From NCBI RefSeq assembly GCF_965363235.1, contig NC_134842.1, positions 37,848,458-37,912,457 of the forward strand: a DNA stretch of 64,000 nt. Direction: 5' to 3'. Both the position numbers and the translations under genes were made by a program. Below the pieces are notes generated by a model. The model was not told the DNA's origin, ran no database searches, and saw only the letters and a program-made list of their open reading frames with translations. Below, piece by piece: positions 9,557 to 58,060 of the stretch. This stretch comes from Mytilus galloprovincialis (taxonomy: Eukaryota; Mollusca; Bivalvia; Mytilida; Mytilidae). Every line of letters starts with the position of its first letter. The stretch's first letter is position 1.

Positions 9557-9940
9557 GTACCTTAGATAACTATTTACACCACTGGGTCGATGCCACTGCT
9601 GGTGGACGTTTCGTCCCCGAGAGTATCACCAGCCCAGTAGTCAGCACTTGGGTGTTGACATGAATATCAATTACTAGTATATGGTCATTTTTATAAATTT
9701 CCTGTTTACAAAACTTTGAATTTTTCGAAAAAACTAAGGATTTTCTTACCCCCAGGAGTAGATTACCTTAGCCGTATTTTGAATAACATTTTGGAATTTT
9801 GGGTCCTCAATGCTCTTTAACTTTGTATTTGTTTTGCTTTTTAACTGTTTTGATCTGAGCGTCACTGATGAGTCTTATGTAAACGAAACGCGCGTCTGGC
9901 GTATTAAATTATAATCCTGGTACCTTTGATAAGTATTTAG
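9557..9940 (+). mobile_element. Retrozyme-like repeat, copy A (5'-truncated)
   Basis: It starts inside the block GTACCTTAGATAACTATTTA and runs to a hammerhead core at its 3' end. The internal body with CCACTGGGTCGATGCCACTG and GGTGGACGTTTCGTCCCCGA matches the copies at 36,178 and 47,400. The 5' hammerhead that would complete a full 353-bp unit is missing. No protein is encoded. Small hammerhead-bearing non-autonomous elements called retrozymes are known in plants and animals, including bivalves. Confidence 0.75.
9859..9902 (+). ncRNA. Hammerhead ribozyme core, weakened stem II
   Basis: In order: stem I strand GCGTCA, catalytic CTGATGA (9,865-9,871), stem II GTCT-TATGT-AAAC with one C/A mismatch, conserved GAAA (9,885-9,888), palindromic stem III segment ACGCGCGT, then C9896 as the predicted cleavage base and the second stem I strand TGGCGT. 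The mismatch in stem II should lower activity. All invariant core bases are present. Confidence 0.75.
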
Positions 9941-14300: not shown

Positions 14301-17300
14301 TTTAAACCTAGCGAACAGAACAAACGCAAACGCACACAACGGGAGTTATATAAGTACATGTATGCTTGCTTATAAAATGTAAATACATCATGCTTGACAT
14401 ACAATATTCATGGCATTCCCTAGCAGGTAATATAGTGATTTTAACATGCTGTTTCTGTAATTGGCCAGATATACATTCGAGGTTCACAGGATTGGCACCG
14501 AGTTATCGAATAGAGGGCCCAAACAAATGACCGAGAATTTAAAAGATATAGAAAATGGAGTTTTAAACTTTTTGCAGTTACCTTGCACTATGAAATTTCC
14601 AATTTCTCCTCCAAGTACTTTATATGTGCTATTTCAGTTCATTTTATCTAGAAAGTGTAAAGTAGGATTAATCAAATGAAATTCTCTTAAATCCGTTTCA
14701 AATCGTCGAATAATATTTTCTTATTTTATTTAAAATCACAAAATATTGAAATGTATGATATGAATATTGTAAACGTCCAGAGTAAAGTTAGGCATTCTTA
14801 AGTTTAACCGGAAGTGAACGTCCCGAAATAGCAATCGGGTCAATACGGTTTAACAATGTAACAGAAGTGAATTAGTTCATAATTTATTCTAAAAAGCCGT
14901 AATGGCCCTGTTCGAAAAGCAATATTAACTTAATATACTGATTTGTACATATCAGCTAAAAAATCCAAATATCAATCAATTTTGTTGATCGTTAATGGTT
15001 CAGTATGCACAAGTGATGCAGGCGTGCTCTGCATCAGGTAAATAGGGCAGAGTAAATTGTGAACCTGGGTCTTATTCATAATTTGTAGTGATATACTTTC
15101 ATTTTAACTGAATATTACCCGAACTCAAAGATCTGTGAAAATAATGAATTCTGCATCATCAAGGAAGTGACAGTTGTGGAAATATTCAAAGTATAAATCA
15201 ACTCATATATGGTTTATAGATATGAGATAAGAGTTGCGTCGGGTAGAAATCGACCTTATACAAATGAATAGTACAATGTAATACAGCTTTATGCAAAGTC
15301 TTTAACTGTTAGACAGTTTGGTTGCTGTAAGAAGTCTAACAGAAGGTGCACTAATGCTTTTGTAACTAAAATAAGTGTTCTTAATTTTTACGTATCAACC
15401 TGTCTTAGAGTTATGCTTTTTTGAATACGTGAATTATTTGTTTCTACTTTTTGAGCAAACGACAATAATGTAAACAGAAAGACATTTAAAGGATTGGAAT
15501 GTTGCATTTTGTAAATATCACAAACCACGCCTCTTTTGTGGAGACATATAATACTCATAAATAATTTGCTTTATTTACGTACTGTATGTTTCATCTCATA
15601 GAGAAATAAAGTGAGAATATTACCATTATTAGAAAAATTATTGTGGTGAAAATTGAAATTCTGAAGTTGACCAGTAGGTTAGTAGAGATATCTAGTTAAA
15701 GTTTAAACTCTAACACGTTCGGGCATTTACATGTTGATAATATGCCTCAAAGTCCTATGCTATGACCTTTTGATAAAGTAGTATTGTCTATCAATTTTCC
15801 ATTTTAGGATATATTTTTTTACAAAACTTAAAAGTGACACAGGTTTAGCCGCAAAGGAAGTTCCTTTGATAAATTGCATTGTCTATATTTACAGAAATGC
15901 AACCTGAATGCGCATTGCATTGCGACGATAATGATAAACATGTTGTTGTGGTAAAAATATAAACAAAAAGTTTTTTGGTTATAGATAAGTCATTTTGATA
16001 TCATAATAACTTATCAATTATGTTAAATAAATCACAACAGCTGAAAAGTATTAGCTCAATCCGTTAATTTTACACAACAAATGCCGGATTCAGGCATCAA
16101 TTTCTTAGGAATGTTGCAGAGCAGTTGAAATGAAGTTAAAATTAAGATACTATATCATATACATCTGTCAATATGTTTGCCTTCTGACCTGTCCTGTAAA
16201 TATACTCATCATAGACACTAGGATTAAATTTGAATTTACGCTAGATGCGCGTTTTGTCTACAAAAGACATGTCACGTTATGATCAGACTTGTTTGAAGAT
16301 CTGTCCGTTGATATCTTGTTGTGATGAAATCAAATTTCTCAATAAATTTATTTTATCTAAAAGCTTTATGCTATAATGGTAAAATGGTAAATTATGCAGT
16401 AAATGAAGCTTCAGTTTCATTTTCAATGACACTGTACTGTCTTCTATGACAGTTTCCCGTACAAAACATAACAAAAAAACGAAATCAATCCAGCGTCAGT
16501 AAGAAGTAAATGAATAGTTTCTTATAGTGTCACGCGAAAATATACATAATCATATTTAATATCGTACCATTAATCATATCATTTAAATGTTGCATCCTTT
16601 TCAAAATAAAAATATTTTCTATACTGTAGATTAAATAGTTAGATAAGAAAAGCAGTTTTAATATGATACTCAAAACTTTAAATAGATGTTTTTTTTATCA
16701 ACTAAATAGTTGATAACCGATATAATGTTTTAAATTATTTTTCCAAAAGCATTTTGCATATTTAAGGCATACCAGTAAACGTTTGAAAAGAAAAGCTAGA
16801 CAGAATAGATCTTTATCACTTTCTGACATGTTTGTTCGTGAACCTGAAAATGTTAATAGCTACAATGCATAGTGCTATTTATATCTATATTATTCGGTCA
16901 GTAGAATGTAGAAAACAACTTTACAATTAACCGTCATATTGCCATTGTGTGCATAACTGATAAAACCTTTAAATACAGCACCCCATTATGACATAATATA
17001 GGAAGAGTCAGTCATGTGCTCAACTGGTTTACATTTTCGAATCGATTTACAAGGTTGATATTTATTAGATAATCTATTTAATAATGAGACTTTTAATGTA
17101 TTTTTAAAATAATCGTTGCATATTTTTTTTTTTATATCAAACGTAAAATTTCTGCATTACACTGATCTTGGTAGCTGGTTTTAATACCTTTTTTCTAAAT
17201 GAAATTTTCCTGTTTGCTTAAGCAACACATTATAAATTATATACATTTGAAGCGCTTAAATGGATGAACAGGCATCAGGAATGATCAAAGCCAAATATTT

Positions 17301-22100: not shown

Positions 22101-25100
22101 TGGGAAGACGGTTAGGTAGTTAAGAGATATTGTGTAATGCTGTTTAATTTACGTTAATATATTTCAAAATTAATGCATGCAATGGTTAAGATAATCGGAA
22201 AATAATGTAAATTGAAGTTAATATTTTGATAGACAGAGATTCAAGATAAACCACGAGTCCAGGGTTATTTATCACATTTTTTAACTTTTGCTGGTGAACG
22301 AATTACTGATCGCTATGCTGGAGGTAAGTGTCTTTGTAATTAATGTTTGTATTCATATATACAAATAAAGGATTGTTTTTGAATTCTAAAAATCATAAAT
22401 TAAAAAGAGTGTTATCAAAACCTTTGAGGCTATACATATTTTCAGAATAGTTTAGCGTACACTTTATATATAGAAATGGAGATGACATTCGATGCGGTTT
22501 TTTTGTGTTTTGTTTTGTGTTTTTTTTAAACTTTAAAACGTTTATAAGATTAGATTATGCTTACACAGCTATGACATCGATTAAAAACCTTCTTTTCTGT
22601 AAAATTTAACATGATCACTTTAAATAAATATTTGCTAAATTTAAAAAAAAAGCAGAACTATGGGGAAATCAGATTTTTATCAAATTAATCATCATGAATG
22701 TCTCAAAATACAGAATTATAACATGTCTGTTCAATATAAAGTTACCAAAATTCAAGTTTTTGAATTTGTCGAATTATTTTCGTTACTGGTACCGTTTAAG
22801 ATTAAAAACATATGTCAGGGCATTGCATGTGTTTAACATTTTTAAATTCTTATCAGGTTGATCCTTTTCTTGACCTGTTGATTATTGTTATGTTACTAAC
22901 GTGTGGGATGTCAGTACTTTATTGGCCAAAATCATTCATTGCGTTACATTTTCATGCTCTCCTCTGAATTTCCTATTGTCTTGTGCATTTTTTTTGCAGA
23001 TTACAAGGAAAAGAAGTTAAAAGTTTGTCTGAAAATCGACTTATTTAATTAGAGAGAAAAACGCATTTTAACACAAAATTTATATCTTCAAAGTATCCAA
23101 CTTAGAAAAAAGACAACACAAAAAAAAAAAAACAACACATAAATGTTTACAATATTTGCAATTAAGATTGGAATATTTGAATAACTTCTTACATTTATAG
23201 AAAAAATCAAACCGAAATCACGAGTTGTAAAAACATCATGGTCACCAAAGGAAGATATGCAGTTAGGCACAATAGTCAAGGTGAAGAGATCAGGAAATGA
23301 AGTCCATGTTCAATGGGACAAAATTGAAGAAAAAGTGAACCTGCTTGATCTACGCTTAGTTGCAGCAACAGGTATTCACCAATTAGATTGTTTAACTTTT
23401 TATCATGAACTATGTTTATATCAGATTTCAACAGTAGCAGGACCTACATGTATTGACCATTCCGAAGCACCCGTGTTAACCACAGTTTCGTGTTTGTTAC
23501 TTGATGCTAAATCTATAGTTTTCTTTGGTTATCTGCGAAGTGATTTGCACCTCTAATGTTTTATACAACTTTTTATTTGTTTATTTCGCCATCATGGTGT
23601 CTCTTCTATGGTTTATATTGTTCTCTTGGCATTCTGTCATTAATTTAATGAACAGTAAATATTACGAAGTTTGTTTTTTTTATTTTCCAAAGGTCAGCAT
23701 AAGGTATACAAAATTGAAATTTACTTCTAATGCTGTACTTTGTTTCTTAAAATGATGTCTAAAAAATGTAGAAAAAAAATTAAAAAAACAAACAATTACC
23801 TTGTGCACAACCGTTTTGGGACATATAGGTATTATATTATATAACTGCTATAACTTTGGCTTGGCTGTAGGACATTGTTTTCCTGGTGTCTCTTTTTTGA
23901 AAACGATAAGTACAAAGTTATAGTTAGTTTGACTTTATTGTTGTGCTAAATCTTATCTTGTTACATTCAATGTAATCTCTCATATGCATCTTATAGCTAT
24001 ACTCTCTTTGTTGAGCAGTAATGTTCAGTTATCCATACAACAATTAATTAAAAAAAAATACAAGAATGAAATTTTTGTTGGTACAGAGCTGATTTAAATA
24101 TAGATGGTGCTTTGTTATTTATAGATTTTTCAAAAGCTTTTGACTCGTTAGAATGGTCATTTATGTATGAAGCTCTTTTAAAATTTGGTCTCCCGCAGTC
24201 GTTTATTAAATGGGTTAAAACTTTATATAATGGTGTCAAAGGTTGTATGCTAAATAATGGGTGGATTTCTGAAACCTATAGCATTTTTCGTGGTATTAGA
24301 CAAGGGTGTCCCTTGAGTTCGATATTTTTTGTTATAGCTGTAGAGATTCTGGCATGTAGAATAAGACAAGATACAGGTATTAAAGGATTTCAAATCAAAC
24401 TTGATTCTAAAACACATAGTCTTAAAATATCACAACTTGCAGATGATACTACTCTCTTTCTTAAATCAAAACAAGAAATAAGCCTGGCATTAAATTTAAT
24501 TGAAGAATTTGGAACTCTTTCTGGTCTAAAACTTAATAAGTCAAAAACTGAAGGAATATGGCTAGGTAAATTAAAACATTCTAAAGATAAATATGAAAAC
24601 ATTAGTTGGAATAAAAGCCCCATTAAAAGTTTAGGTGTATATTTTGGAACTAATAAAATTGAATGCCAGAAATTAAACACAGAAAATATTTTGAGGAAGT
24701 CAGAAAAAGCAATTTCAAATTGGAAGAAAAGAAAGCTTACAATGATTGGACGAATAACAGTAATAAAAACATTAATTATACCAAACGTAACCTTTTTAGC
24801 ATCAGTAACTAATTTATCGAGAGACTTTCTAACACAATTTAAAAAATTAATATTTAACTATATATGGCAAAACAAAAATGAGAAAATCAAGAGATCTACT
24901 CTATGTAATGATTATCAGGATGGAGGTTTAAAAATGATTGATATAGATAGTTATATAACATCAATCTATATATCTTGGGTTAAAAGGTTAACAACAGAAG
25001 AATTTTCAAATTGGAAGGTTATACCCTTATATTACTTTAACAAATTTGGAGCAAACTTTGCTCTATTTAACATGAACCCTGAAAATATATATGACATACC

Positions 25101-28100
25101 AAATTTAAAAAAAAATTATGCCAGAATTTTATTTTGAAATTTTAAAAAGTTGGTATAAAGTACATAATAGTTCAAAGATAAGCAAGGGGTTAAATTTCAA
25201 ATGTATAAGACAGCAATTTATTTGGGGTAATCAATCAATTAAATTAAATGGTAAAAGTCTTGTTTTTCCAAACTGGATAGAAAGTGACATTCTTTTTATT
25301 AATGATATCATAGATAAACAAGGAAATATCTCCCAAAAAGTAATCTTAAATAAATTGAAAGAAAAATCAAACTGGATAGCAGAACTTTCTAAACTGAAAT
25401 CTGCAATTAAAAAGGAATGGAAACTCATGTTAAAATCAAATCAATCAATTTCAACTAAAGTTCAAATAGATAGAAATCTTTACTTAGAAACAAAAAACAA
25501 AGCCAAATCAATTTGCATTAAAAAATTAAAACCTAAAGATATGTATAATTATATCAAAGGTATAGAGAGTGACACACCTATTGGTTTCATAAAATGGAAA
25601 AAAAATTTCAATCTAAATTCCTCAAATCAATTACATGATATATTAAACTTTACATTTCACCAGTTAATTGATAACAAACTAAAAATGTTTAGGTGGAAAT
25701 TGATCAATTATATATTGCTATGTAAGCAACTGCTTTATCAATGGAAAATAATGAAGGATAATCAATGTCATATATGTCACCAAGTAGACAATTATAATCA
25801 TTTTTTCAAAGAGTGTGAATTTTTACAAGAATTTTGGATTAAAGTTGGGTCATTACTAGATAAAATAAAAATAGGTACACATATTTTATCAATGCAAAAT
25901 TTAATACTTGGATACAAAATTCATGACAGTTCATATTTTGATATTAATGTGTTGTTAACAATTGTTTTATTTGCTGTTTACAAAAGCAATTATGCATCAG
26001 AGTTAAAACACAAGTACATAGATGTATACAGGGTTTTTAAATTAGAATTCTTAGAATGGTATGAAAATAGTATACTCTTAGAAAGAAAATGTAGTAAATT
26101 TTTGAAAGAAACATTTAAATATATATAATTCACCACAATGTAATTAAATAGCTGAGGCGTACAAGTACTTATGATTGAGTAGTTGTGTGACAGAGAGTGT
26201 GTGTGTGTGTGCTAGTTTTGTGACCAAGTTTGTGTGTAGGCACATGTGTGTGTGTCTGTTTATGTGAAAGTTAAGACATTATACTCCATGTACTCGCAGA
26301 GCAATATTATGTTTTTCATTTATGTTTTATGTATACTGTTTCTCTGTTTACACGAAACGATTGTCAATACTTTATACAAAGTATAAAAAAAGTCTCATTC
26401 TTTATCCATCATGTCCATGTTTTGAACATGTTAACTTTATACCATCAGAATGTCATCAATGTTTGATACTCATAATAGGCTAATGCATCAAGTTTCTCAG
26501 TATTCTGTAGCGCATTCAAGTAATCGTTAAAGAATACAAAACAGTTATTTCATTAAATTTAAAACTTACCAAATTAATTAAGAATATTCCAACATACAAG
26601 AATGAATAAAACGCACGTGTTCAAGATACATAATAAACATCTATACCACGTGATATACAATTAAAATAAGTAGAAAAACGTAAACAGAGAGAACGTATGT
26701 TTTCCGGATTTTATTGCTATGCAGTTTTTGTAAACTATATAGATTGTAATAATATATTAACCACTTATAATAAGTTTATCTTGTGAATCCCCTGGTTCAT
26801 TTGATAATTCACACACAGGGATAAACCTATCTGGGATAGTTGTACCTTTTAGGGTATTTGTTAACAACCAATAGTGCAATAAACTGAATAATTATTAAAA
26901 AAAAAAAAAAAAAAAAATGTTGATTGATTTGTGGTGGAATCATCTTTGACAAAATAAAATATCATAACTATCTATTTTATCAAATCTTTATACGTCATCA
27001 AACACAGATGAATCCAAACATAAATTATATTTTTAGCATATTTTAAATTAGTGATGAAATTTTAATTTTCAAATTACATGTCTTTTTTATCTGCATTTTA
27101 ATAAAATTGCATGTTTGATTTGTTTTTACATAATTTATATTACGCATTTCCTGATGATAGTATTATTTTATAGAAAAGAGTGCAGGAGTAGTTTTGATGT
27201 CACGAACTATCGTATCCAGCAGTACAGTAAGCGACATGCAGGACGGAAAAAACGTTAACCTACGTTTATTAGACAATGCGCCAATAAGTATGCACTTTTT
27301 TTCCTTTAATTTTCTATTTCGATTGCAAACTCGTCGTTGCTGTAAAACAGAGAGCTTAAATGAAATAGATGATTTCGCGTATTCTATATTATTACGGTAA
27401 AGTATACAATTCAATAAATATGAAGGTCTGCCTTTTCATCAGGTTATATAAAATATAAAAAATAGCAGTACTAATAAGGATTAAAACGAATTGAGAACTT
27501 GTTAGTTTTTTATCAAAGCGGGTTCTGTCTGGGTCAAAATCATAGGATCCCGAAAGTTTTTTAACAGAATATTCGTTTAGATCGTTGTAAGATCGATTCT
27601 TGTATTCAAAGCATACACTTAGAATCTGTATTTTAATCAGATTGAGTTCCGATTCAAGTGTCATCGATGATAAGCGTTAAGACGAAAAGCAAAAAGACTT
27701 ATGATAAGCCTTGTATATTTGGTGAGTTGTTTTGACCAGTATAGAGGAATGCAAAGCCAGTTTGTCTATGGTAATTAAGTGGGATATGAAAACACGATTA
27801 CATGTTATTCAAATGTGATGTTTCAAAATTTAAGAAATTATTTCATGTTAAGGATTATGTAGCTCCTCTTGCAAAGCTCTTTGTTTTGGACGTATCGATA
27901 TTAGTAAACACAAAAGCGTCTTCAATGTTCGTAAGCTTTACTAGTGAGACGTCGGCAAGTGACGACGTTGCGGGCCTATTGTTACGTAAATGGCGGTAAA
28001 ACGTTAAACAAATAAAAGAGTATAAAGTAACTATAACTAATTCACAACATTCTGGGGGCCGCAAAATGCAATTACTGTTCATGTATTGGTCATAAAAAGG

Positions 28101-31100
28101 GTATTGAAAAAACACTTTAAACAATTAAAGTTCATATTTCCAATGGCACCAGTTTCACAATTGGTCTCGTGGTAATCAGTCCATTTGATGTCCGAAGTTT
28201 CACTGCTCTCACTACTCCATCATTCCCGGTGATTAAATCTTCAATAACTGCTAGTTTCCACATCATTCTCGGTGAATTGTCCATGATTTGTACGACGGAA
28301 CCGATTTTCAGATGTGCGCTTTGGTCTCCGGGGACGCGATGAAATTCTCTTAATCCGGTGAGGTATTCCATTCTCCATCGTTTTGCAAAGTGATCAATCA
28401 AAGTTACTTTATGATTAAAACGTTTGTTTGCCTCTGTGAAATCTAAATTAAAATTATTGTCCTCTGAATCAGAATTGTTGTCTTGCGATAATCTTCTTCC
28501 CTGCAGTAGATGTGACGGCGTTAGCGGCTCTGGATCTCGGATGTCGGACGACACATATGTAATCGGACGATCGTTGATTACACGTTCAATTTCTATCAAA
28601 GTTGTTCGTAATACGTCAGAATTTACTTGTGATTTTCCAAGCACTTTTTTCAATGTTGTTTTCGTAATTCCAACTAGTCTCTCCCACCATCCGCCGTACC
28701 ACGGTGCTGCTTTCGGGATAAATTTCCAATTAATTTGAATGTTCATTTCCTTCGGAATGTCATGTGAGGCGGAAACAAAGGTTGGTGCATTATCGGAATA
28801 CACAGTACTCGGAATTCCTCTCCTACTAACGAATCGTCTAAACGCTAATTTGAATGATTCGATTGTCATATCTGTAACAAGTTCAAGGTGTACGGCACGA
28901 ATACAAGCACATGTGAATAGGCAAATATACGATTTTGTAACAAGTCCATTATCTTTAACGAATAATGGTCCAGCGAAATCAACACCAGTTGTCGTAAACG
29001 GTATCATATCGGTGACTCTATCCTTTGGTAGCGGAGGCGAAATTTGCTGTGGAAATGCTTTCCCGGTCACTTTTCGGCACTTTACACATTTCTGTACGAT
29101 GTGGTTAACGCATTGTCTAATGGAAGGTATCCAATATGATTGGCGGATTTGCGTAATTGTCTGTCCAGCACCAGAATGTAACATCTGCAGGTGCGCGTTC
29201 AATATAACTAAGTCCGTAAATTGATTCTTCTTCGGTAGTAACACTGGAAACTTCGCGGAGTCGTCTAACTGTGAATTGTGTATGCGCCCGGCGCATCGAA
29301 TGACACCTTCTGTATCTATGAACAAGCGCAGTTGTCTTACTAACGGTAGATTCTTGTCATGTGACGGGTTTGCGAGTTGCTGCTTTTCATTACTGAATTT
29401 TTCATTTTGAATATCTGTAATCCATGTACAAATTGCGCGGTCGATTTCATCTTTCGTAATATCTTTTCCGTGTCTAGCATATTTCCTCAAATTATACGGT
29501 CGCTTACTTTTACATATATTCACAAATTTAAACACGTAGCATGTAACTCGTAGTAACTTCTTCAATGACGAGAATCTTGATAGGTCGATTATTTTCGAAA
29601 TTCCATTTAATACACACGGTTTCATCTTTTCGTTGTCATCTGTTGTCGTTAACAAAAGAGTCTCTTGTTTAACTTGTGGGGTCCATGTAGGCCAACTGTT
29701 CTCATCTGATATCCATGATGGTCCTTGTATCCACAAAGTCGATTCTTTGAATTGCATTGATGATATTCCTCGAGTTTGAAGTTCGGCTGGATTTGATTCT
29801 GTTGGTACGTATTTCCAGTCGTAATTTTGTGTCGTTTCTTTAATTTCTAACACACGATTCTGAACAAATCTTCCAAATGATTTTAAAGACGAAATCCAGT
29901 GCAGAACGATCTGACTGTCACTCCATTCGAGCTCCTATTACTGCAGCCATCAATTCAAGCTTTGGTAATGTCATTTTGGTGAGCGGAGCGATCCGGTTTT
30001 TTGCAATTACAAGAGAAGAAGTGTTTCCTTTACATAAGTAGGCACTGGCTCCATAAGCGCGTTGGCTGGCATCAACAAAGACATGTAATGTGATTTTCTC
30101 GTTGCTTTTGTTCTCATTTTGATCGTTGAAATAATGTCGTGCGATTTTCGTATTAACTGTTACATTTCGGATGTCATCTAAAATTTCATACCATGATTTA
30201 ACTATGTTGCTAGGCAACACCTGGTCCCAATCATATCCTTCTTTCCATAATGTTTGTACCAGTAGCTTAGCTCTTACGGTCACTGGTCCAAGAATTCCGA
30301 GTGGGTCGTAAATTGACGATGATTTACTCAATATTTCTCTCTTTGTCGCTTGTGAATTATCAATATCTATACGATCTTCATTTAATTTCGCAAATGTCAA
30401 TATGTCTGACTTCGCATCCCAACGCATTCCAAGAATTTTCGTCTCGCTATCCGTATCAAGTACGTTTGCCTTTGTAGCTTCGTTGCTAAGTTGATTGCTA
30501 TTTGACTTCCATGTTCTCAAATTAAATCCTGCATTTGTCATGAGTTCTCTAGATTCTTCAAAGAAATTTAAGGCGGCTTCTTCCGTATTAACACTTGTAA
30601 GTACGTTGTCTACATACAAATCACGCTTAAGTATTTCAGCAGTAGCACTTTTAACCGTTGATAAATGTTTCAATAATGTAGCGTTAAGAATAAATGGCGA
30701 ACATGTCGCTCCGAATAAAATTACCTTGAATCTGTAAGTCTCAAGTTCACTCTTGGGGTTGCTTGGATCTCTAAGCAAGAAAAATCGGGTGGAATCGCGG
30801 TCTTCTTCGTCTAGTCCAATCTGGAGGAATGCTTTCTCAATATCCGTTGTTAAGGCGTATTTCCCGTAGCGGAATCTTGTAAGTATATCTGTTAGCTTAT
30901 TAAGCTGCGGCGGTGTAGAAGAAAGACAATCATTTAAGCTGGGTGATTCTGAATCTTGACGACAACTGCAATCATATACTATACGTATCGGTGTAGTCGA
31001 TGAATCTTTTTTCACTGGGTGGTGCGGAATATAATGTATTCGATTAGTAGTCTCATCCGGGGTCTCAACCTTCTCTATAAAACCTCGATTTTCTTGGTCG

Positions 31101-34100
31101 TTGATTATGTTACCGTATATCTTAAGCATCTCTGGTTCTTTAGCAAGTCGGTTTATTACGTTGTATGCTCTCTTTCTGACGATCATCTCGTTGCTAGGCA
31201 ACTCCAGATGTTCTGGTTTCCATGGAAACTTGGCGATGTACCTATTGTCTTTCAAATGAATGTTATTCTCTTGGTAAGTGGTCATTTCTTGTAAGTCTGT
31301 TTTCGCTTTCACTTCGCTGTCTGTTTCTGTTCCTATGGATTCGATTTCCCAAAATTTATGTATTTCACATTCTTCTAGTTTGTGTGGGGTCAACATGTTC
31401 ATAATCGATGACGTTGATTGATTATTACTGTTAGTGTTCAATTGTATAGGTCCTGATAGCAAGTATCCAACTTTGGACTGTACAGCGGTTGGTCCGGAAC
31501 CTCTAATTACTCTGTCTCCAACTATATCCCAATAATAATCGGCGCCAACTAAGACTGATATATCAAAATCCTCGTCCTGTAAAGCTGGGTGGGCTAACTT
31601 CAATCCATTTAAATGCTGAAAACTCGACTGGTTCCTTGCGTAAGTATGTATCGGATAAGCAATCTGTGGTACTATAAGAACTTCAATAGGGATAAGTGTA
31701 TTCGTCAGACCTTTTATATAGATAGTAGCAATTTGTAAATTTCTAACCTTCTTGTTGGATTCACCGAAACCGGATATCGTTATCGCTTCTTTCCTGTGTG
31801 GTCTCAGGTTCAATAAATCGGCCATCTCTTGAGTGATAAAGCTTCGCTGGGCTCCTTCGTCGAATAGTATATTGGCGGTGTTAAAATGTGTCTTGTCATA
31901 CGTGATAGGTGCTATCGCGGTTTTCAACAATACCTGCGATCTAACCGATGATATTGATGAATGCATGCTTGCGACTGCGGCATCGGTATCTGGTTTTGAT
32001 GTAATGCTATCTTTAGACTTGGTATACAAGTGTGTTTCATTCTTTGAACAAATGCTAGTATGGTGTCGTTTATTACAGTTTTTACACGTTTTATCGGATT
32101 TGCAATCGGCAACTCTGTGATTTCCTAAGCAATTGAAACATGCCTGTTTCTCCTTAACAATGCGTTTTCGAGCTTCAATTTCCGTAACAGTTTTACAAGC
32201 TAATGGGGCGTGAACTCCTTGACAAAAGATGCACGGTTTCTTGGTTATGTCTCTTTTCCCTTTCTGATTTGCGTAGTTGCGATTTGTACCCGTAAAGAAT
32301 GCTGATGTGGGTGTGTAATTTGGCTCTATATCATCACCGTTTACCGACTGACCCGCTTCCTTAATCGTTATCTCATGTTGAATAGCTTGCCGTAACGACG
32401 GCAAGTTCCAGTGGTCGCCTCCGTGGGCACGTACCATGTTTTCTCGTATATTCCCAGGTAATTTATTTAATATTATGGGCACTAAAAGGCTCCCGAACGA
32501 CTCGTGAGACTCCCCTATACTTTCAAGGCCACGGATGTAGTTTTCCATACTGTCGTAGAATTTTTTCAAATGTGTAATATTTGACGTTGGACTAGGAAGG
32601 CTGATTAAACTCTGCATGTATGTTTGTACTATCTTATGTGGTTGACCGAATCTTTGTTTCAGTACATGTAATGCTTGTCCGTAATTTGTGTTAGTTATTT
32701 GTAGACCTGCTATGCATTGGGTGGCTTCTCCGAACAGTTGAGATTTCAAATAATTAAATTTCTGTACATCGTTTAAAGACAGGTTATCATGGATGGCAGC
32801 ACTAAACGAATCCCAAAAAGGTTGCCATTCTAACATATTCCCACCGAACGTTGGTAAATTTAATTTGGGAAGTTTGTGGTACATGCTGGAGTTTGAAAAA
32901 ACGGACGCTGATGTATTTGCGTGCATGAAACTGGGCTGTGGCTGACTTTCTTGATGATTTGTGTAATTAATAAACTCGTATGCATTTGGGTTTAGCAATG
33001 ACTTACTTGACTGTTTGACTGTGATTTCCGATTCCTTAATGATTTTTGAAAGTTTAGTTACACTCATTTCTATGTCATATGTGTATCTGTCGGCTTCCTC
33101 TATTTCTTCGCTCACTTCCTCTTCCGATAGTTCCTCCACAATCTTCTCGTTCAGTTGATCGATCGTTTCCTGCTTCTTCACAATAAGTCCTCGAATGGTT
33201 GAAAGTTCACTAACGTCATATTCCTGCAAAAGTTCCTCGGAACTCGGTTCCACTTTCTTCAGTAACTTTGTAAGAACTTCCCGATGTCCAGCTCGTCTGG
33301 TCTTCATCTTCGCGGTACTCATCTTTCGTATTCTTCTGTTTTTGTCACGGCACCAATGTTTTGGACGTATCGATATTAGTAAACACAAAAGCGTCTTCAA
33401 TGTTCGTAAGCTTTACTAGTGAGACGTCGGCAAGTGACGACGTTGCGGGCCTATTGTTACGTAAATGGCGGTAAAACGTTAAACAAATAAAAGAGTATAA
33501 AGTAACTATAACTAATTCACAACACTCTTATTCGTTGTCTGTCTTTTACTACTCTATATGTTCATTCTGGTTTGATCGGTCTTCAAATTTGAATTAGTTT
33601 TGGATTTCAAATACTTTGGTTTATGGTAAAACAAAATACTAATTCGTACCCTTTCAGAAAGAACATACAAAGAAGTTCTACATATCAAACAGAGAGTTTT
33701 CACGTATACAAGGAGCTGTAACTTTGTCAATAGGTTTAACATTTTGAAAATTGTAATACTGAATGAAAACGTAAAGGGGCACTAGCTGTCAAATTATTGT
33801 TCACCGATTGTAATCAAATTTTCATATCTAATTTATAACAATGTGATGCATTTATCCAAACTATTAAAAGTCTGAAATAAACAATTAACAGGGCACGGGC
33901 ATGACAATATGTAGCTTCGTTTTGTGCAATCTAATTAAAAACCGATCTCTCATCGCTCCTGTTTCTGATATGTCGCGTGGGAGATCTAACGAATCCCGCT
34001 TTGAGGTCACATGTGAGTGACCTCGTAGGTGTGTCCTTTTCGACCAATGAAATTGAGTCTTCCACGATCTTGGAAGTTTAACGTAAGGCAAAGGGATGTA

Positions 34101-37100
34101 ACTCATTTTATTTACGACGAAATCGTCAGTCATAATAATTCATAAACTTTTTTGATTGGCTGATTAATAGGTCGTCAACTCATTTGCATATCTTTATAAA
34201 TTCATGACTTTTAGTTCACTCACATGTGACCTCAAAGCCGGTTTCGTTAGATCTCCCACGCGACATATCAGAAACAGGAGCGATGAGAGATCGGTTTTTA
34301 ATTAGATTGCGTTTTGTGTGTATTATAGTCTATACGCCATCCAATTAACTATCGAGTTGATCTTTTCAGTAATCCGATGACCATATAATCGATGTAAACA
34401 TCAATATAGATATAAATAGATTAAGCAAATGCGTGCTGTTGGATATTTGTAGGTCTATTTGATGTCATATTATAGATGAAGAATAAATATTATCATCGTT
34501 TGTTTCACTTTCAATGTTAACATTCTTTTTCTTTAAATAACTTTACACATACAATTCACGTGTTATCCATCCAAAGCTAAGGGGGTAAATTGAAGTTCAC
34601 ATGAGTACGGATTTAATGAGGTCGAATTATTTACTTGCAAGTTAATAATTCATAATCAATGTTTTTATGTCTTATTTTGACAAAATTGAACAATACTGGC
34701 TGCTAAAAGCGAATCATTATTTCACTATTTGCATTTGATTAATGATTGAGCAATAAAAATAATATATTAGATTTTTGTATATCTCGTAGCTAGTGCCCCT
34801 TTAAGGACTTTGGATCACTGTAGAATCCTTTTTGAGATAGAATCCATGGCCAAGGATAAACATTACACCAATTATAAAATGTAGGAAAGTTGTAACTAGC
34901 ACTTACAGTTTTCGATTATTTTGTCTCTATAAAACACTGCAAGGTCACTTGGCCAAATTCAAATTATGATATAAGTTGGTAACTTTAACATCCCTTTCAC
35001 ATTTGTGATATCTACCCACACTTTTTTGGGCTGTAATTTTAGTCATCTACAAAAAAAGTATATTGTTATGAATTAAGTGCCACTGGTGAGAGTTGTTTTA
35101 CTTTACGTATTGTAGTATATTCAGCTAATGTTTGTTATCATTTGATTTCTTTTTGTCAAATCGTTCTCATATATCCTATCTACTCTTTGAAAGAAAAAAA
35201 AACTAAAAAAAACTAAATTTTCACAGTATATTTTGTATTCGTGTAAACTTATAATTGAATTCCATCTTTTATTTCGAAGTTACATGACGATACTTTATCA
35301 TGTGTGTATATTTAAGCCAAAACGTTTCAGGAACAAACGGTTGTACTTTGACATAATACAACTTTACATGGTTATATTTGACTTTTTCGGATGTTTTAAT
35401 TCATAGAAAAAATAAGACAAGGTTCAAGAGTAGTAAAAAAATCATGGATTCCCAAAGAAGAAATGCCTTTAGGCACAATAACTATGGTGAAGACATTAAG
35501 AAGAGAAGTGTATGTCCAATGGGACCAGATTGAAGAAAAAGTTAATCTTCATGATATACGTTTAGAGTCTAATCAACCATGCGCCAACAGGTATTACTCA
35601 TCTAAATTATTTATGTTTTGATTGTGGCTTTTGTATATTTGTTATTCAGAGAAAATGATGATTTCTAGTTTTGCGAAAAGATCAAAATGAAAAAATATAT
35701 AATTAAGTCTGCGTATAACAATGAACATTATGTCGTCTAATTGACAATGACTATTTATCACGGGTAGTGACGTCGTCATATCGAGGAGCGTTTAGTACAT
35801 TTTGATTTAGCCATAGTTTGGTTAAGTAGGTCATAGTTTAGTTAGGTTCGAGGAACGATTGCTTCCAATATTTTCAAATTAAGAAATAGAAATCAAATAG
35901 TCTAAATAGAAATTGTTCTTTTTAAAAAATTAACACAGGATAACTAAAATATTGAAATTGATTTGTTTTGGTTAGGCGATTGACCAGGTTTAGTGAAGTG
36001 GTTAGAGATTTGTCATGGTGTTGATCAAATTTGTCATGGTTTAGTTCAAATACGTACATATGTGTTTCATATTGATATTGATAGTCTGTAAACAATATAA
36101 CAATTGACTACGAAGAAATTATCCTTTTTTAACCAAATTTGGTGGTCGTAATTGTCAAACTGTAGCTTATTGGCAAACGAAACGCGCGTCTGGCGTACTA
36201 AATTATAATCCTGGTACCTTTGATAACTATTTACACCACTGGGTCGATGCCACTGCTGGTGGACGTTTCGTCCCCGAGGGTATCACCAGCCCAGTAGTCA
36301 ACACTTCGGTGTTGACATGAATATCAATAATGTGGTCATTTTAAAAATTTCCTGTTTACAAAAGTTTGAATTTTTCGAAAAACTAAGGATTTTCTTATCC
36401 CAGGCATAGGTTACCTTAGCCGTATTTGGCACAACTTTTTGGAATTTTGGATCCTCAATGCTCTTCAACTTTGTACTGTTTGGCTTTATAAATATTTTGA
36501 TATGAGCGTCACTGATGAGTCTTATGTAGACGAAACGCGCGTCTGGCGTACTAAATTATAATCCTGGTACCTTTGATAACTAATTATACATTTTTTGTGT
36601 GTTTCATTAGGTAGAATTTATGTTGCCACTGCTCGTTTAAACTGCAATTCAATTGAATTAGTTTTTTTCTGTTTCAATAAGAAACTTTACTCTGTATTTC
36701 TATAATGAACTTTGCCGGGAATACCGCAAGTCGTGTCACTAATCAAATGGTTAAAGACGTCTACCTAAAATTAGAAAACGTAGCAGCTAGTCAAAACATA
36801 ATGTTTGTTTGAAAAAAAAGTATATTTTGTATTAGTTTAGATTGAAATTTATTTGGCTCCCACTTGGCACAAATGGGAATGGAATAACTTATTAATAAAC
36901 TTTAAAAGTCAAGAAACAAACTCTCACAGTTTTACTTACACTCAACTTTAGCATTTAAGAATAATTGTTTACTTGATAGAGAAAAAGAAGAAGGTTCAAG
37001 AATAGTTAAAATAGCATGGACATCTGAAGACAAAAGTTATGTAGGTACAATAGTTAAGGTCAACATAACAAGACAAACAGCTCGTGTTCGATGGGACAAG

Positions 37101-40100
37101 CAACATGTAGAAAAAGTGCAGCTTTATAAACTACGTTTAGTCGGCAATTATCTAACACATGTAACAGGTATATACCAATAATTATTTTTTTTACTGTTAC
37201 CTGTCTGCTATTCATATGTTTTAAACAATGGAATGGAAAAAAGATGACTTCATTTTTGGAAAACTTCAGCATACAATTCAACATATTCATATATATGAGG
37301 ATCTGTCTCACTACAAGCCACCGAATTTATTTCACAGCTTAAAATCATTCTATTTAAGTGTTATAGTATTTGGGCAAGCGTAAACATGAATTAATAAGCT
37401 GCTTTTGATGAGTCATGTTTTTTTTCTTAAAATGTTCTGTTTCAAGTCAAGAATATAGCAGTTGATTTCAACTAGCTCGTTTTCATGTATATAGGCGTTT
37501 GTTTTTGTTGAAGTTCAGTGTTTCTACTGTTCTGTTGTTTTACTCTTATAAAGAATGTGTTTCCCTCGGTTTTAGTTTTTGACCCGGATTTGTTTCCGCT
37601 CTATGGATTTATGATTATTGAAAGTCAGTATTCTACTGTTGCCTTTATGGTACGCGAGACGCCCATATATATCAAATATCAGTACCAATATTGGTAATAT
37701 GTATATTCATTAAACTATCAATTAATTCTTAAATATGCGAAACACCTAAGTAACTGTTTTTTTTTATATTGTATGACTATAACAACATTCAACTTGCCGT
37801 CACAATATATTTAAACGAAGTAAATTCTGAAATGATTTAAAGTTATTTTATCTACGAATATTTGTGGATGTAAATATAGAGCTGCATATATGGAGAGATT
37901 TTAAATACGTAAACGAAAAATATATATATTTCATGTCATTGAGGTACTCTAATGAACGCAATAAAGATTAGAACTGTATTGACTATCGTTTACGATTAAA
38001 AAATGAGCCCCTAATTTATGCATTTTTGTATACATGTCAAGAGGGATGACCTAACTATATAGATGATGTTCCGAACTTCCCTCACTAAATAACTCAAGTT
38101 TTGGTGACTATGTTGTTGAACGTATCTATATCATCGAACTTGAAATAAAGGATTCAACAGATACAGTTTAGTCTGCGTCATATCTTGAGTAACATCTAGA
38201 AATTGACAATGAGGGTCGGTTGAAAACACAACTTTACGACAAAAGAGATGATTTCAGCTTTCCAAATGTGAATATTTCATTCCTATATATGTAGCAATAT
38301 TTCGGCAGCGCCTGCATTCGGAGTATATATCTCCCAATTGATAGGAATAACTGTTACACAGACGATATCGGATACTATGTTCCTTATGTTATAACTACAA
38401 TCCCCTTCCCTTTTGACGAATGAGACGTATCTTATTAGACCACTTACATTAACCAGGTTTGTGATAACATGAGCAACACGACGGGTGCCAAATGTGGAGC
38501 TGGATCTGCTTAAACTCCCGGAGCACCTGAGATCCCCCAGTTTTTGGTAAAGTACGTGTTGCTAAGTATTTAGTTTTCTATGATGTGTCTGTGTACTGTG
38601 ATTTGTCAGTTTGTCTTTGTCTTTTTCTATATTAGCCATGGCGTTGTCAGTTTATTTTCCATCTATGAGTTTGATTGTCCCTCTGGTATCTTTCGGTCCG
38701 CTTCTACATATGTGACATCTTATAATATTTGTTTTAATTTATAGATAAAATAGAAAAAGGTTCTAGAGTAGTTAAAAAGACACAGACAACTCGAGAAGAA
38801 GTACCTTTCGGTACAATAGTCAACATAAACCAATCCACGAAAAAAGTTCAAGTTAAATGGGACAAGACTGAAGAAAAAGTTAACCCGCTTGACCTTCGCT
38901 TATATGACAATGCGCCATCGGGTAATGAATAGTTATACTGTTTAACGTATTTTAAAATGTGAACTATATACATTAGATTTTATAAACCGTTTTATAAAGC
39001 GTTGTGTTCAACATATCTGGAAGATATATCCTTTTGTGGCAGGTCAGATAAAGATAAAAAAGAAAGATTCCAGGGGAATTAAAATTGATCAGTCAAAGGA
39101 AAGCAGCAAACACCATAAACTTTAAAAAAGAACAAATGCAAGGTGAATTTTATCAACATTTTACACCCCCGAACCTTTTAAAAAATAATCTTTGCTCCTT
39201 GTTATATTTTGCTGTCTATATACTGATTTTGTGTCGTAGGTGGATGACACATATTCTTTATTTTCTTTTATATCATTCTTATTTGACAAAAAAAAAAAAA
39301 AAAAAAAAAAAACACAGACAAAGGGATATCTTGTGTAATAATATGATGTGTATGAAGTTAAAAACCAGCAAATTTTGCAAAATAAACGCAATACTTGTGT
39401 TAAAAGGTTCTCTCTAGTTTATCTTCATAATATATGCCTATTGGATAATGTATATATTTCTTTAATTTAATTAACTGTTTGTTTCAGGAGTGAAGCATAT
39501 TAACGTAACATGTGATGAATGTTATGCGTATTCTCTGCGTGGCATACGATGGAAATGTCTTCGCTGTGACAGCTACGACCTTTGTTCAGTCTGCTATATG
39601 GCTGATGAACACAATGTCAGTCACATTTTCAGTCGCATTCAAAGTGAGGATTCGAAAGGGTAATGCTTTGCTTTTGTTGGCATACATTTTGTGTCACCCA
39701 AACGTACTTAAGTAATTCAAGACTTCTGAACGCATTTAATATAATTTTAATAGTTATTAAAGGTACCGGGCTTATTAATGCCTCATAAACCAAGAGCACA
39801 GAGTTGACAAACTCAATAGTCTAGTTAAAGTTAAATATACTATTTTCGAAAAGAAGCATACTGTTAAAAAGATTTTTTTGTCGAGTTATCCGCTGTATGT
39901 AACTGCAAAAGTATATGCATATTTTTTATTTACTTTATCAACCTTCTTTTAGAGAAGAATCTCCTGACACTTTCTAGAAAACTAAGGTCACTCTAAATTG
40001 TTGTATAACTTGAGATCATTAGTTTCCCGTTTAAAGTGTTTTGTAGACATTTGTTTGTTTTGTTTATGAATTAATACTACAAAATCATGAAGACATAAGC

Positions 40101-43100
40101 GAATTTCATAAGAATTTTATTTTCTTTGCGTTTCAGTAAAGAAATGACAGCACGGATGGATGTAAAATTGACAGGCTATGCATTTGCATGGGGTATTCAA
40201 GAGAATGCAGAAGTGTCGCTTCGGAAAGATAACAGAAAAAGAGGTAACACAGTTACGGAATGATTGCCAGGTTTTGTTTTTGAATTCGATCTTTATTTCT
40301 CTTGTGTATTTTTTTTTAGAAAATGATTTAATTCTATAAAAGGTAAAATACCAAAAAAAAGGAAAATTCAAAATATTAAATCAGTCATGTGTGAAAAATC
40401 TTTACGATGTCGCAATTCTAACAATGATTCATCTATAATAATTTTCGTATCATAGAACTTTTATGAATTTGATAATGCATGATCACTCTAGGTTTCAGTA
40501 TATATGGTGTTGCTATTATACCCCTATTTGTGACAGTTATGCCTATTTTGTCTGTTTGTTTTGTTCACACATCGTTGTCGATAAAAAGAAATTTGATACG
40601 ACTTTCATACAAGTGAGAGGTTTTTATCTAGCTTTAAAACAGTTTAATACTTGGAATGCCCTTCACTGGTGTACTTGTTTGGATTTCTATTTATTTTTAT
40701 ATGAGCGTTACTGATTAGTGTAATGTAGACGGAACGCGCGTCTTGTGTATTAAATTAAGCCTGGTGCTTTTGATAATCAATAAATCCACCATTTTCTACA
40801 TAGGAAAATGCCCGTACAAATTCGTGAATATGACAGTTGTTATCCCTTCGTTTGATGTAATTGGCAGTTTGATTTTGTCAATTGATTGGGGACTTTCCGT
40901 TTTGAATTATCCTCGCATTTTTTTTTGGTGATTTTACTTTTTGGATATTAAATTGTTTTACAAAGATACGTGTAGTATGAATGAACACAGAAGGTGATTA
41001 TTATAAATCAAAAACTTGCAGTATTTTTGTGCAGTCGATTGTCATTTGATTACTTTAATATAAAAAAAAGAAGATGTGGTATGATAGCCAATGACACAAC
41101 TGTCCACAAGAGACCAACATGACACAAAAATTAACGACTATAGGTCATTGTAAGACCTTCAACAATGAGCAAAGCCCATACCGCATAGTCAGCTATAAAA
41201 GGCCCAGAAGTGACAATATAAAATAATTCAAACGAGAAAACTAACGGCCTTATTTATTTAAAAAAATAAACGAAAAACAAATATGTAAGACATAAACAAA
41301 CGACATTTGTATGTATAGATTACAATTGATTACTTAATCAAATGTTTAATTTTGTTTCCTTAAAAACTGCCAATAACTTGCTAAAACATGTATAATATAA
41401 AACAAAATAATAAAAAAAAGTTCACCACCGTTCTTATAAGTTTGTTGGTATTTGTTCCCTCTAGAATACCATTTTGAATTGCAATTGTGTGCATTAACGT
41501 ATAACAAAAATGTCGAAATCGAAGATATATCCGAAAAGGGAAAGCTTTTGTAAGAAATATGAACTTGGAAGTTCGATTGTTTTCCATTTTATATTCTTTT
41601 TACATTTTTCGTCCTATTCAAATTAAGCAGTAATATTTCACAACTATAAAGAGATAAATATGCTTTTTTCTTCGATTTTCAGTTGAATGCAAAATTTTCC
41701 CGTTAATCAAATCAGATTGACTGTTCTTTCACCTTAACATGCTATAAAAGTTTAATTTAGGTAAATTATGTATAACATGAGGCGTTGTTGATTTAACCAT
41801 TCGATATTATATTTTGATGATAAAATTTTCACTGCATTTCTTGATGTAAAAAAACAAAGCACCATTCTCGTTTTACTGTTAATATTACCTAAATGATGTT
41901 TCAATTCTAGGCGTAGTACTAGCAATGCAAGATGACGAAATTCAAGTGCAATGGTCAGCCAATCACAAAACAAGTAAACACAATATACTGGAACTACAAT
42001 GCGAGAGCACAGTAGCACGGCAATTTTATCCTGAACATCTCCCGATACTTGGAAAAGGTAACCATAATTTACCAATCAAACAATGTACTTAGAATACAAA
42101 GTTATGACTATACTAAAATAAATTAACAATGAATCCTCAAAACATAACACTATGGACCTACACCAGACTATTGATAGAAATTGTATGTATAACCGCTAAA
42201 ATTGAAGGAAAAGTTGGAAATACCATTAAAGAATAAGTTACATCTTAATATTTGACATTAAACATATGATTCCTTTTGAAAGTCCCATCGAAAAGTAAGT
42301 TCTCGCATCTGTATTATGTTAAAAAAAAATTCCCGGTCAAATTTATGAAAGACCAATAGAGATTAATAGACATTGGTATTTTATATCATACTACTATATA
42401 AAGATTTGTTGCGCGATTCTTATAAAAGTAAATGAGATAATTATATACTTGATATATGAATAACAGAAAATAATACCGTATTGCCAAACCTTTCAACAAC
42501 AGTTTAAATACTTCTCTGCATGCAATGGTTCAACTTGTATATGCTTAAGTTCTTGTTCAGTATTGTCCGACCTCATGCCAAATTCTAAAATTAAAATCAG
42601 TAAAAGAGAAGTAGGAAAACAGGGAATATTAAATTTTGTCCTTTTTCTCCCCATTAATCTGAGTGTTAACCATTGAAGGAAAAATTCTGTCAGAAGGTAC
42701 AGAAATGTGACGGTAGTAAAATAGCACAATTAGTTGACGCAAAGAGCAAAAGGGTCTTCGAACAAGCATATTTATCAAGATGTATCTTATTGGACTCGAT
42801 TTGAGTCGAATACATATATAGGTATTCGAAACATATTTAACCTTTAAGTGTTCAAAACGCTCATCAACGATCGATAAACTCTCATACAATAAAGTGTGGC
42901 GTGACTGACCGTACCATAATATACTTGACTATCAAATATGTACTTTGATAGCTTTTAAATACATTTGATTATGATTATTTAAATAGATACTCTAGGCCAC
43001 CTTGACGTTGATTTCAGCCACAACAATACAAAACAAAAGGTAATTGATATTTGTATGTTCACTGTAAGCTTTTTGATTAAAAGAAAAAAAATATACAATT

Positions 43101-46100: not shown

Positions 46101-49100
46101 GTCCATGAAAATTGGTATCACAGTTTGTTTTACTCTTTTTCTAATTAAAAATCAAAGAAACTAATGGTGAAAAACATGTTTGATAACACTCTCTGTCATC
46201 ATATCACTTACGCGTTTTTATTACAAAAAGAAGATGGGTATTATTGCCAATGAGACAACTCTTCAAAAGAGACCAAAATGACACAACTATAAGTCACCGT
46301 TCGGCCTTCAACAATTAGCAAAAGCCATGCCGCTTAGTCAGCTATAAAAGGCCCTGAAATGACAATGTAAAACATTTCAAACAAGAAAACTAATGACCTT
46401 ATTAATGTACAAAAAGTGAACGGAAAACAAATATGTAACACATAAAAAAACGACAACCACTGAATTATAAGCTCTTGACAGGCACATACATACAGAATGT
46501 TTGTTATACGTTGCCATGCTCAAAGTTTTAGCTGTTTGTGTGTGTGTTTTATTTCGTCTTTTTTTGCATTCTTTTCTACATTTATTGTTTTCTGTTCTGT
46601 ATTGTCGAGTGCGTTTTATTTCTTATTCTCAAATTTTTAACATAATGTTTTGCCTTCCCATCAAAATGTTTTGTTTAATAGTGTTTGATATAAAAAAAAT
46701 TATCTTATATGTTTGTTTTTATCAATATAAGGAATTGGTGAAGAAAGGATTTCGAATTTTCGAAAGAGGGGATACAAACACAGAAGAAACTGAAATCAAA
46801 TACTTCATTAGAATGGCAGAATGTAAGTATTCCAATAGAACCAATATGGAGCAAAAGAGATCCTTTCAGCTTCCTAATTATGAACTTTCAATTTTTATGT
46901 AGCAATTTTGAGCAGCGCCTGTATTAAGATTGTATATATATTCAAGTCATTTTCCAGGGCTTCGTTTCTTATCATGATTTCTTTTTTTTCTTATTACGAA
47001 ACGGTTTCAGTTTATCTAATATACAATCATGATCCCCGCACATTAGCCATACAAACTACCACTTTAGGATCAGAAACATTTCTGGCTTATTCATGCAACA
47101 ATTGTGCAACAGTTTTTTAAGTTAACATTGAAAATAACTTTAAATTTTCATATGATTGTATTATAATTACAAACCCTTTTTCATTGCAGATGTGTTACAT
47201 GAGAAAGTTTTACCAGTAATTATATCCTTGCGTAATGGAGGATTGAATGAAGACGTATTAGTTAGTGCTAGTAGTTTATTACTACCGATTATTCGATTGA
47301 AGGTACGAAATTCTGGCAACAACATGATTTTGGTTGATGCATTTTTCAGGAATACACGACTTTTTTAATTTATGCAAACTTCTCATCATTGCTGTATTAT
47401 TGCGTAACTGATGAGTCTTATGTAGACAAAACGCGCGTCTGGCGTATTAAATTGTAATCCTGGTACCTTTGATAACGATTTACACCACTGGGACAATGCC
47501 ACTGCTGGTGGACGTTTCGTCCCCCAGGGTATAACCAGCCCAATATTCAGCATATCAGTGTTGACATGAATATCAAATATATGGTCAATTTTAAAATTTC
47601 CTGTTACAATACTTTGAATTTTTCGAAAATCTAAGGATTATTTTATTCCAGGAATAGATTATGTTAGCCGTATTTGGCACAACCTTTTTGAATTTTGGGT
47701 CCCCAATGCCCTTCAACTTTCTATTTGTTTGGCTTTATAACTATATTGATCTGAGCCTCACTGAAGAGTCTTATGTAGACGAAACGCGAGTCTGGCGTAT
47801 TTTAAAACTATAAACTTGATAAATATTGTACCTCTTTAAAAATGAAAAACCGAAAATTAAAAAGTGTTTCTACAATGATTTTCAATGTCACGGTCATTAT
47901 TGCTTGACATCATATATCGAATGACGTCATTGTTTGGCATTTCACATCACAAACGTCGAGCGTTCGTATTTTCTGGCACATGAAATGCAACCCTGAAAAA
48001 CACCTGGCAACAAGAGGGTTAAAAAAGAAATCTCTGTTTTACTGACAAATTATAACATAAGGGTTTTCGATATCAAAAACAAGTCAAAACATTTACTTTA
48101 TTTTATCATCGGGACGTCACAAAGGCATCATTCGTAAATATAAGTCAACATGCAGACATCTTATATTATAGGTATTTTTCATCAAAACTTTATGGTAATA
48201 TTCTATACAAAGCACACACATGCCGTCATTCACCGAAAAATCTAACCAAACCTTTAAACAGACTTATTCAGAAGGAAATAGACACGATATTGTAAGCAGA
48301 TCATTAAAGATGGTGTAGTTTGGAATTAATATTGATCTTCTCATAGGTGTTTTGCATCAGAAATGAACACTTTTATTCTGAAACCAGTTCGACGTTGGTT
48401 AAGTTTTTTCCTTAATTTTATGATGGTTCGATTCTCAACCCATAACAGGAGGGATTGAGCTTGATTTTTTTTATGATGAAGGCATAATCTGTAACTCTGT
48501 CTAATTGAGGTCTGGAGCTGGCATGCACGTAACTGCTAGTAGTCCTTGTTAGTCTATAAATCATTGTTATTTTACTTAGTTCCTTCTATGACATATTAGT
48601 ATTATGAATTTTGACTCGGACCTTTTTTCATGATTTTTTCTGAGATTCCACAAAATTTTGTTATACCTCGCCGTATTTTCGCACGTGTCTCAAGTAAGGA
48701 GCTTCTGGCATTGTTTAGTTTTTTATGTTTTCAGTTAGACTGGTTACCGATCGCAATATTCAGTATGAGGGAGTATGGCTAATAGCTACTACCTGGAACG
48801 TACTACCGGGAACCAGGATAGTTTTTAATCTATTTATATGTATCGGATGTTAGTGCGACTTCTTTTTTTCTAGTAGTTGTCACTTTGACACATTACCCAT
48901 TTTATTCTTAATTTTAAGACAAAGTTGTAAAGTAAGAGCCTCATATGGTATCACTGATGTAAGTAAGAATTTTTGTAAGTTAGAAGCATATTTTATTAAT
49001 GTTGTCATAAGGTTTAAACCTGACGATAACTCGTTTGATAATGAGACACAATTCGGGAAATTGACTTTGACAATGTTTTTTTGATATATCTTTTATCGTA

Positions 49101-57625: not shown

Positions 57626-57679
57626 GGTAATAACCAAACTAGTATATACAGTCCGTGTAACGTAAAAGTTAACAATACG

Positions 57680-58060
57680 AACGATTCCCGAACCATGTAC
57701 GGACGATGACCGAACGATGTACGGACGATGACCGAACGCTGTACGAACGCAAACGAAACGCTGACCGAATGTTGTACGGACGCTGAACGAATGATAAACG
57801 AACGAAACCATGTACCATCAACCGTACCATAAACGTTACTTTAAGTGCTCTTTCAGCGTGCATCGTATGAATGTTCGTAGATCGTATATGGTTTAGCGTA
57901 CATCGTATGGTTTAGCGTACATCGTATGGTTTAGCGTTCATCGTAATTGTTTTGCCTAAATCGTATATGGTTTGCGTACATCGTATGGTTTTGCGTACAT
58001 CGTTTCGTTTAGAGTATATCGTATCGTTTTAGCGTTCATCGTATTATTCGGCGTACTAGT
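57680..58060. repeat. Two adjacent tandem arrays in opposite orientation
   Basis: 57,680-57,840 repeats a unit of about 22 bp containing GATGACCGAACGATGTACGG. 57,880-58,060 repeats a 19-21 bp unit GTATGGTTTAGCGTACATC about nine times. GATGTAC in the left units is the inverse of GTACATC in the right ones, so the arrays could fold together around 57,860. Confidence 0.75.

Follow-up and report, generated by a model that had tools for sequence, protein, structure and literature searches.

The locus raises three connected questions: whether a hammerhead motif in a short repeat of Mytilus galloprovincialis is a genuine ribozyme, what kind of element carries it, and how that element came to lie where it does. 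We addressed them in a 64-kb window, the whole stretch of DNA that was analysed, and compared the repeat with published systems (PMC7229834, PMC11167929 and PMC7761336). The element is of a kind already published for M. galloprovincialis (PMC7229834), and thus known in the genus. The possible importance of the locus lies in a 3' end common to its copies, which may hint at the enzyme that moves them.

The focal hammerhead and the element that carries it

The focal repeat contains a complete type I hammerhead (Table 1), and each of the parts listed in the original prediction—stems, core, GAAA, GTC and two G-U pairs in stem I—is present. The type I assignment and the expected cleavage after C36543 are backed by Rfam, by a strict descriptor and by the published family (PMC7229834). 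Family RF00163 matches at 33.0 bits (E 2.4e-4 for the 64-kb window and all 4227 Rfam families), narrowly below the gathering score of 34 bits; judged by the original prediction's own demand for a match above threshold, the hammerhead just fails. Rfam returns no match at gathering threshold in the whole window, and the two further hammerheads that it recognizes, at 30.6 bits in copy B and 30.1 bits in copy C, are under it too. The strict descriptor—fixed core bases, a stem I of at least five pairs, and paired stems II and III—finds a single site on the two strands of the window, the focal hammerhead, so the focal copy is the only window copy to pass it. It is silent in 200 dinucleotide shuffles, and a chance hammerhead was rejected on that ground. 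A looser pattern (CTGATGA..GAAA..GTC) has two matches against 0.20 expected, the second of which, at 9865, belongs to another copy of the element. RNAfold, applied to a 70-nt context, gives -12.6 kcal/mol unconstrained vs -6.7 kcal/mol with the hammerhead pairs enforced; folds other than the hammerhead are thus favoured by an energy model from which tertiary contacts are absent. In the explanation favoured below, the focal hammerhead can probably make a single cut, at C36543.

Table 1. Features of the focal element and its other copies, in window coordinates
Feature	Position	Strand	Description
Focal retrozyme copy A	36177..36589	+	~1.2 units; blastn, nhmmer, local alignment
Partial second hammerhead	36177..36190	+	only end of stem II 3' strand, GAAA, stem III and GTC; lacks CTGATGA
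353-nt unit	36191..36543	+	from base after first cleavage triplet to cleavage-site C; 39.4% GC
Stable double stem-loop	36236..36322	+	unit 46-132; directly 3' of common end point
Complete type I hammerhead	36506-36549	+	core bases present; all three stems can form
Stem I	36506-36511 and 36544-36549		GCGTCA with TGGCGT; 6 pairs, 2 of them G-U
Hammerhead core	36512-36518		CTGATGA
Stem II	36519-36522 and 36528-36531		GTCT/AGAC; 5-nt loop
GAA of hammerhead	36532-36534
Stem III	36535-36542		ACGCGCGT
Cleavage-site base	C36543		predicted cut after it
Element 3' end	36584..36589	+	unit position 41-46
Copy B	9557..9939	+	1.06 units; 93% to unit; stem II of its hammerhead carries one C-A mismatch
Copy C	47402..47821	+	1.18 units; 88.5% to unit; both hammerheads altered
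Copy D	40655..40776	+	5'-truncated, 0.35 unit; hammerhead core mutated
Copy E	16195..16268	-	diverged, 0.20 unit
Copy F	39749..39775	-	27 nt, tail only; weakest match

The original prediction placed the element at 36178..36585, which is right as to location; the element extends slightly past these limits, to 36177-36589 by blastn, 36178-36586 by nhmmer and 36166-36589 by local alignment. The proposed 353-nt unit was borne out by a direct repeat with a spacing of exactly 353 nt (36177 and 36530; 97% over 60 nt). Unit size and GC content match the range of metazoan non-LTR retrozymes (170-400 nt, GC below 45-50%), and the unit and the type I hammerhead both fit the family type described in PMC7229834; the identification of a retrozyme-type element holds. 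The longest copies in the window reach ~1.2 units, compared with the dimer or more of the retrozyme criterion. The original prediction's remark that the repeat is often left as anonymous mussel DNA overlooks the work of Cervera and de la Pena (2020; PMC7229834), in which elements of this kind are described from M. galloprovincialis. According to that work, the species has ~5000 type I hammerheads, usually in repeats of ~350-390 bp; a cloned repeat cleaves with a kobs of ~0.1 per min; circular RNA was detected by northern blot and RT-PCR (circRNAs MN642551-MN642576); and the monomer of the dimeric construct DRtz_Mg353 was circularised by RtcB to ~30%. The focal element resembles these non-LTR retrozymes in its type I hammerhead, its size class (353 vs 350-390) and its genus, and is likened to them by these features, not by sequence identity. 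Plant LTR retrozymes share with the mussel element kind a hammerhead, a circular RNA and a non-autonomous way of life, but differ in having a type III hammerhead, LTRs, a PBS, a PPT and a 4-bp TSD (PMC7229834, PMC7761336).

Copy A has only one complete hammerhead because its upstream partial copy begins within the 3' strand of stem II. A 353-nt monomer would therefore not be released by double cleavage from copy A alone: as read from its sequence, this copy would be unable to make a circle by itself, its transcript being cut once, at C36543, and never twice. The 353-nt circles that the original prediction sought from this locus are thus not to be expected from a copy that spans ~1.2 units and has just one hammerhead that is complete.

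The element has no evident coding capacity of its own. All six frames contain stops, the longest open stretch is an antisense one of 85 residues, and no inner frame reaches 90 aa; no frame of the size of a reverse transcriptase, with or without a GIY-YIG endonuclease, lies within it. Folding of the unit (354 nt) gives a z of -0.90, with 17 of 100 shuffles at least equally good, so that a description of copy A as highly self-paired is unsupported. Exact matches were absent from viral contigs (3 patterns) and prokaryote genome contigs (2 patterns), as were blastn matches from plasmids and phages; these are non-animal collections, and their silence says little about relatives outside mussels. Strings from the element had no match in the literature text searched.

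Copies in the window and their common 3' end

Five further copies, B to F, were found in the window by blastn. In copy C, the upstream hammerhead has AAAA in place of GAAA, and the downstream one is changed in stems I and III. Copy F is supported by a blastn E of 7e-4 and by nhmmer E values of 0.061 with the whole element as query and 8.5e-5 with the tail. The flanks of the six copies show no clear target-site duplication by eye; one imperfect candidate of 9 nt (TTTAGTACC/TTTAGTTCC) lies at copy B, its left arm overlapping the element's own sequence.

All six copies terminate 26-46 nt past the cleavage site (unit positions 46, 43, 26, 36, 45 and 41 for A to F by local alignment; the value of 26 for copy C comes from strict alignment and becomes ~39 only if a gap is allowed). 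Under a null model that takes the copies as independent and their ends as uniform, none of 400,000 random sets of six had a span of 20 or less; with copy F left out, 26 of 400,000 random sets of five did. The 5' ends are widely different (331, 24, 316, 267, 329 and 15), and are at the same time less scattered than chance, a span of 110 or less occurring in 7,354 of 400,000 random sets. Copies A, C and E, together with the protein-level copy P0121 described below, start near unit 316-335, a clustering for which a stop induced by structure, or transcription beginning near unit 335, could account.

To check the end point outside the window, predicted proteins were searched with the antisense frame of the tail, candidates being considered at E up to 10. 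The tail is carried by 3 of 8 candidates in one search and 5 of 6 in another, with one shared, giving seven distinct metagenome-derived proteins, each match being weak by itself (E 2.9e-4 to 0.15). The query held the tail, so these copies were forced to include it to about unit 38, and only their end beyond that point is free. By eye, six of the seven leave the element at unit 41 (P0123, P0125, P0126 and P0127) or 44 (P0122, with a flank of only 6 residues, and P0124) and pass into unlike flanks; the seventh, P0121, carries on into the following unit, its 5' end lying near 335. The end-point result is thus based on 6 DNA copies and 7 protein-level copies. No statement of a common 3' end of retrozymes was found in the literature examined (PMC7229834, PMC11167929, PMC7761336 and PMC11722881), and this property of the mussel copies may be new.

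Directly 3' of the common end point lies the double stem-loop, which is more stable than its shuffles in copies A (z -4.6), B (-3.2) and C (-2.6), and for which an alignment of 3 sequences shows no covariation. A fixed start site beside such a stable structure would offer a handle on the retrozyme's partner enzyme.

How the copies may have arisen

The explanation that we favour, and consider likely, is that the focal repeat is a 5'-truncated single insertion of a Mytilus type I hammerhead retrozyme, with a fixed internal start of reverse transcription. Multi-unit copies elsewhere, the presumed source, would be transcribed and cut by their own hammerheads, and the unit-length RNA would be circularised, as others have reported for M. 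galloprovincialis. A reverse transcriptase borrowed from another element would then start at a point ~41-46 nt beyond the ribozyme cut and immediately ahead of the stem-loop, cross the ligated or uncut cleavage junction to make up to ~1.2 units in the copies seen, and stop at varying points, as the copy ends suggest. Since copies A and C are both longer than a unit and run through the cleavage junction two times, the template from which they were made was either circular or uncut. Target-primed reverse transcription produces copies whose 3' end is fixed and whose 5' end varies.

The same pattern of ends is standard in LINE and SINE insertion, and a LINE enzyme acting on a linear transcript that was never cut might have inserted the copies in SINE-like fashion, in which case a circle would be unneeded and the common 3' end would be the LINE recognition tail. 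This account shares the fixed 3' start with the retrozyme insertion that we favour, and the probabilities of the two overlap. It gains from the observation that mutants of the hammerhead in Anolis Penelope-like RNA inserted equally well in vitro, cleavage being unneeded there (PMC11167929). Yet the retrozyme 3' ends carry no poly-A or simple repeat by eye, and a 19-nt likeness to the retrozyme tail at 26791, 3' of a LINE reading frame (E 0.17), is within chance and lies ~90 nt before the LINE poly-A; a link between the tail and this LINE (24070-26128) was rejected, the match being at chance level only. We regard insertion by a LINE enzyme as rather unlikely.

Two other accounts deserve mention. 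Transcription of a Pol III SINE would begin near unit 335, shortly before two box-like motifs, TGGCGTACTAA for the A box (unit 1) and GGGTCGATGCC for the B box (unit 51), and would account for the starts near 316-335 in copies A, C, E and P0121. The B box has a single mismatch to the consensus, a score reached in 108 of 5000 shuffled units, but the site at unit 1 is outside the four best A-box sites, all of which have 2 mismatches to the consensus, and the unit contains six runs of 4 or 5 Ts, at which Pol III is expected to stop. Retrozymes apparently lack promoters, according to PMC7761336, and a Pol III origin seems improbable. That the copies are what is left of a tandem satellite after DNA recombination had split it up, without an RNA step, recalls the related newt repeats, which were first named satellites (PMC7229834), but is hard to credit for dispersed copies on both strands, with unlike flanks and one shared 3' end region.

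If the copies are indeed retrozyme insertions with a fixed internal start, the likeliest donor of the reverse transcriptase would be a Penelope-like element, an analogy that we put forward tentatively and hold to be nearly as probable as not. In Anolis, the enzyme of the Penelope-like element PAc starts reverse transcription inside its own RNA, past the hammerhead, after a cut that falls most often at ATT, and requires RNA on the 3' side of the start; the start is 111-118 nt into the ORF, ~85-92 nt past the hammerhead's own cut (+26), and a second site lies 30-40 nt off (PMC11167929). The common 3' end of the mussel copies would fit reverse transcription from a fixed internal site of this sort. 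PAc and the retrozyme are alike in their hammerhead and partial tandem copies, the genomic ends of PAc being set by the internal start; they are unlike in that the retrozyme is without a frame of at least 90 aa, has a stem III and ends ~41-46 nt, not ~85-92 nt, past the cut. The likeness is one of anatomy and does not extend to the distance past the cut. Of the window frames examined, none was recognised as a Penelope-like gene. More specifically, a Penelope-like enzyme could move mussel retrozymes by binding the stem-loop at unit 46-132, cutting an AT-rich target and starting reverse transcription in the circular RNA 41-46 nt past the ribozyme cut, a proposal that is possible but on balance doubtful. 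If true, the circle would be a template without end, and the missing partner of animal retrozymes would be named.

Neighbouring features in the window

Several other features were observed in the window. A BEL/Pao LTR retrotransposon occupies 27882-33528 on the minus strand, with long open frames at 28132-29934 and 29918-33412 and terminal direct repeats of at least 172 nt that are 99% identical; it is probably a recent insertion. Over the region searched, the Pao frame 29921-33412 shares 97% identity with a protein of Mytilus trossulus and 96% with one of M. edulis, vs 93% with one of M. galloprovincialis at a query coverage of 76%; the window is thereby placed in the genus Mytilus. A LINE fragment at 24070-26917 has RVT_1 and zf-RVT in two overlapping frames (24070-25137 and 25109-26128) and a poly-A at ~26897-26917. 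Two covariance matches are probably due to chance: MIR4380 at 63920-63989 on both strands (35.1 and 33.1 vs a gathering score of 83 bits) and a sub-threshold SECIS_1 at 48411-48475 (E 0.29). Tandem repeats of short period based on ACGAACGATG and TATGGTTTAGCGTACATCG lie at 57676-58044, and an inverted repeat at 34000-34236, with 24-nt arms that are 96% complementary and 189 nt apart, is perhaps a small DNA transposon. Finally, coding-like repeated segments (GTIVKV..WDK..KV..LRLV) recur at 23185-23556, a member added to the group by eye, and at 35392-35565, 36964-37140 and 38730-38903; Pfam points only weakly to a UBE2O SH3-B domain (E 0.12), and the segments are perhaps tandem exons or gene duplicates.
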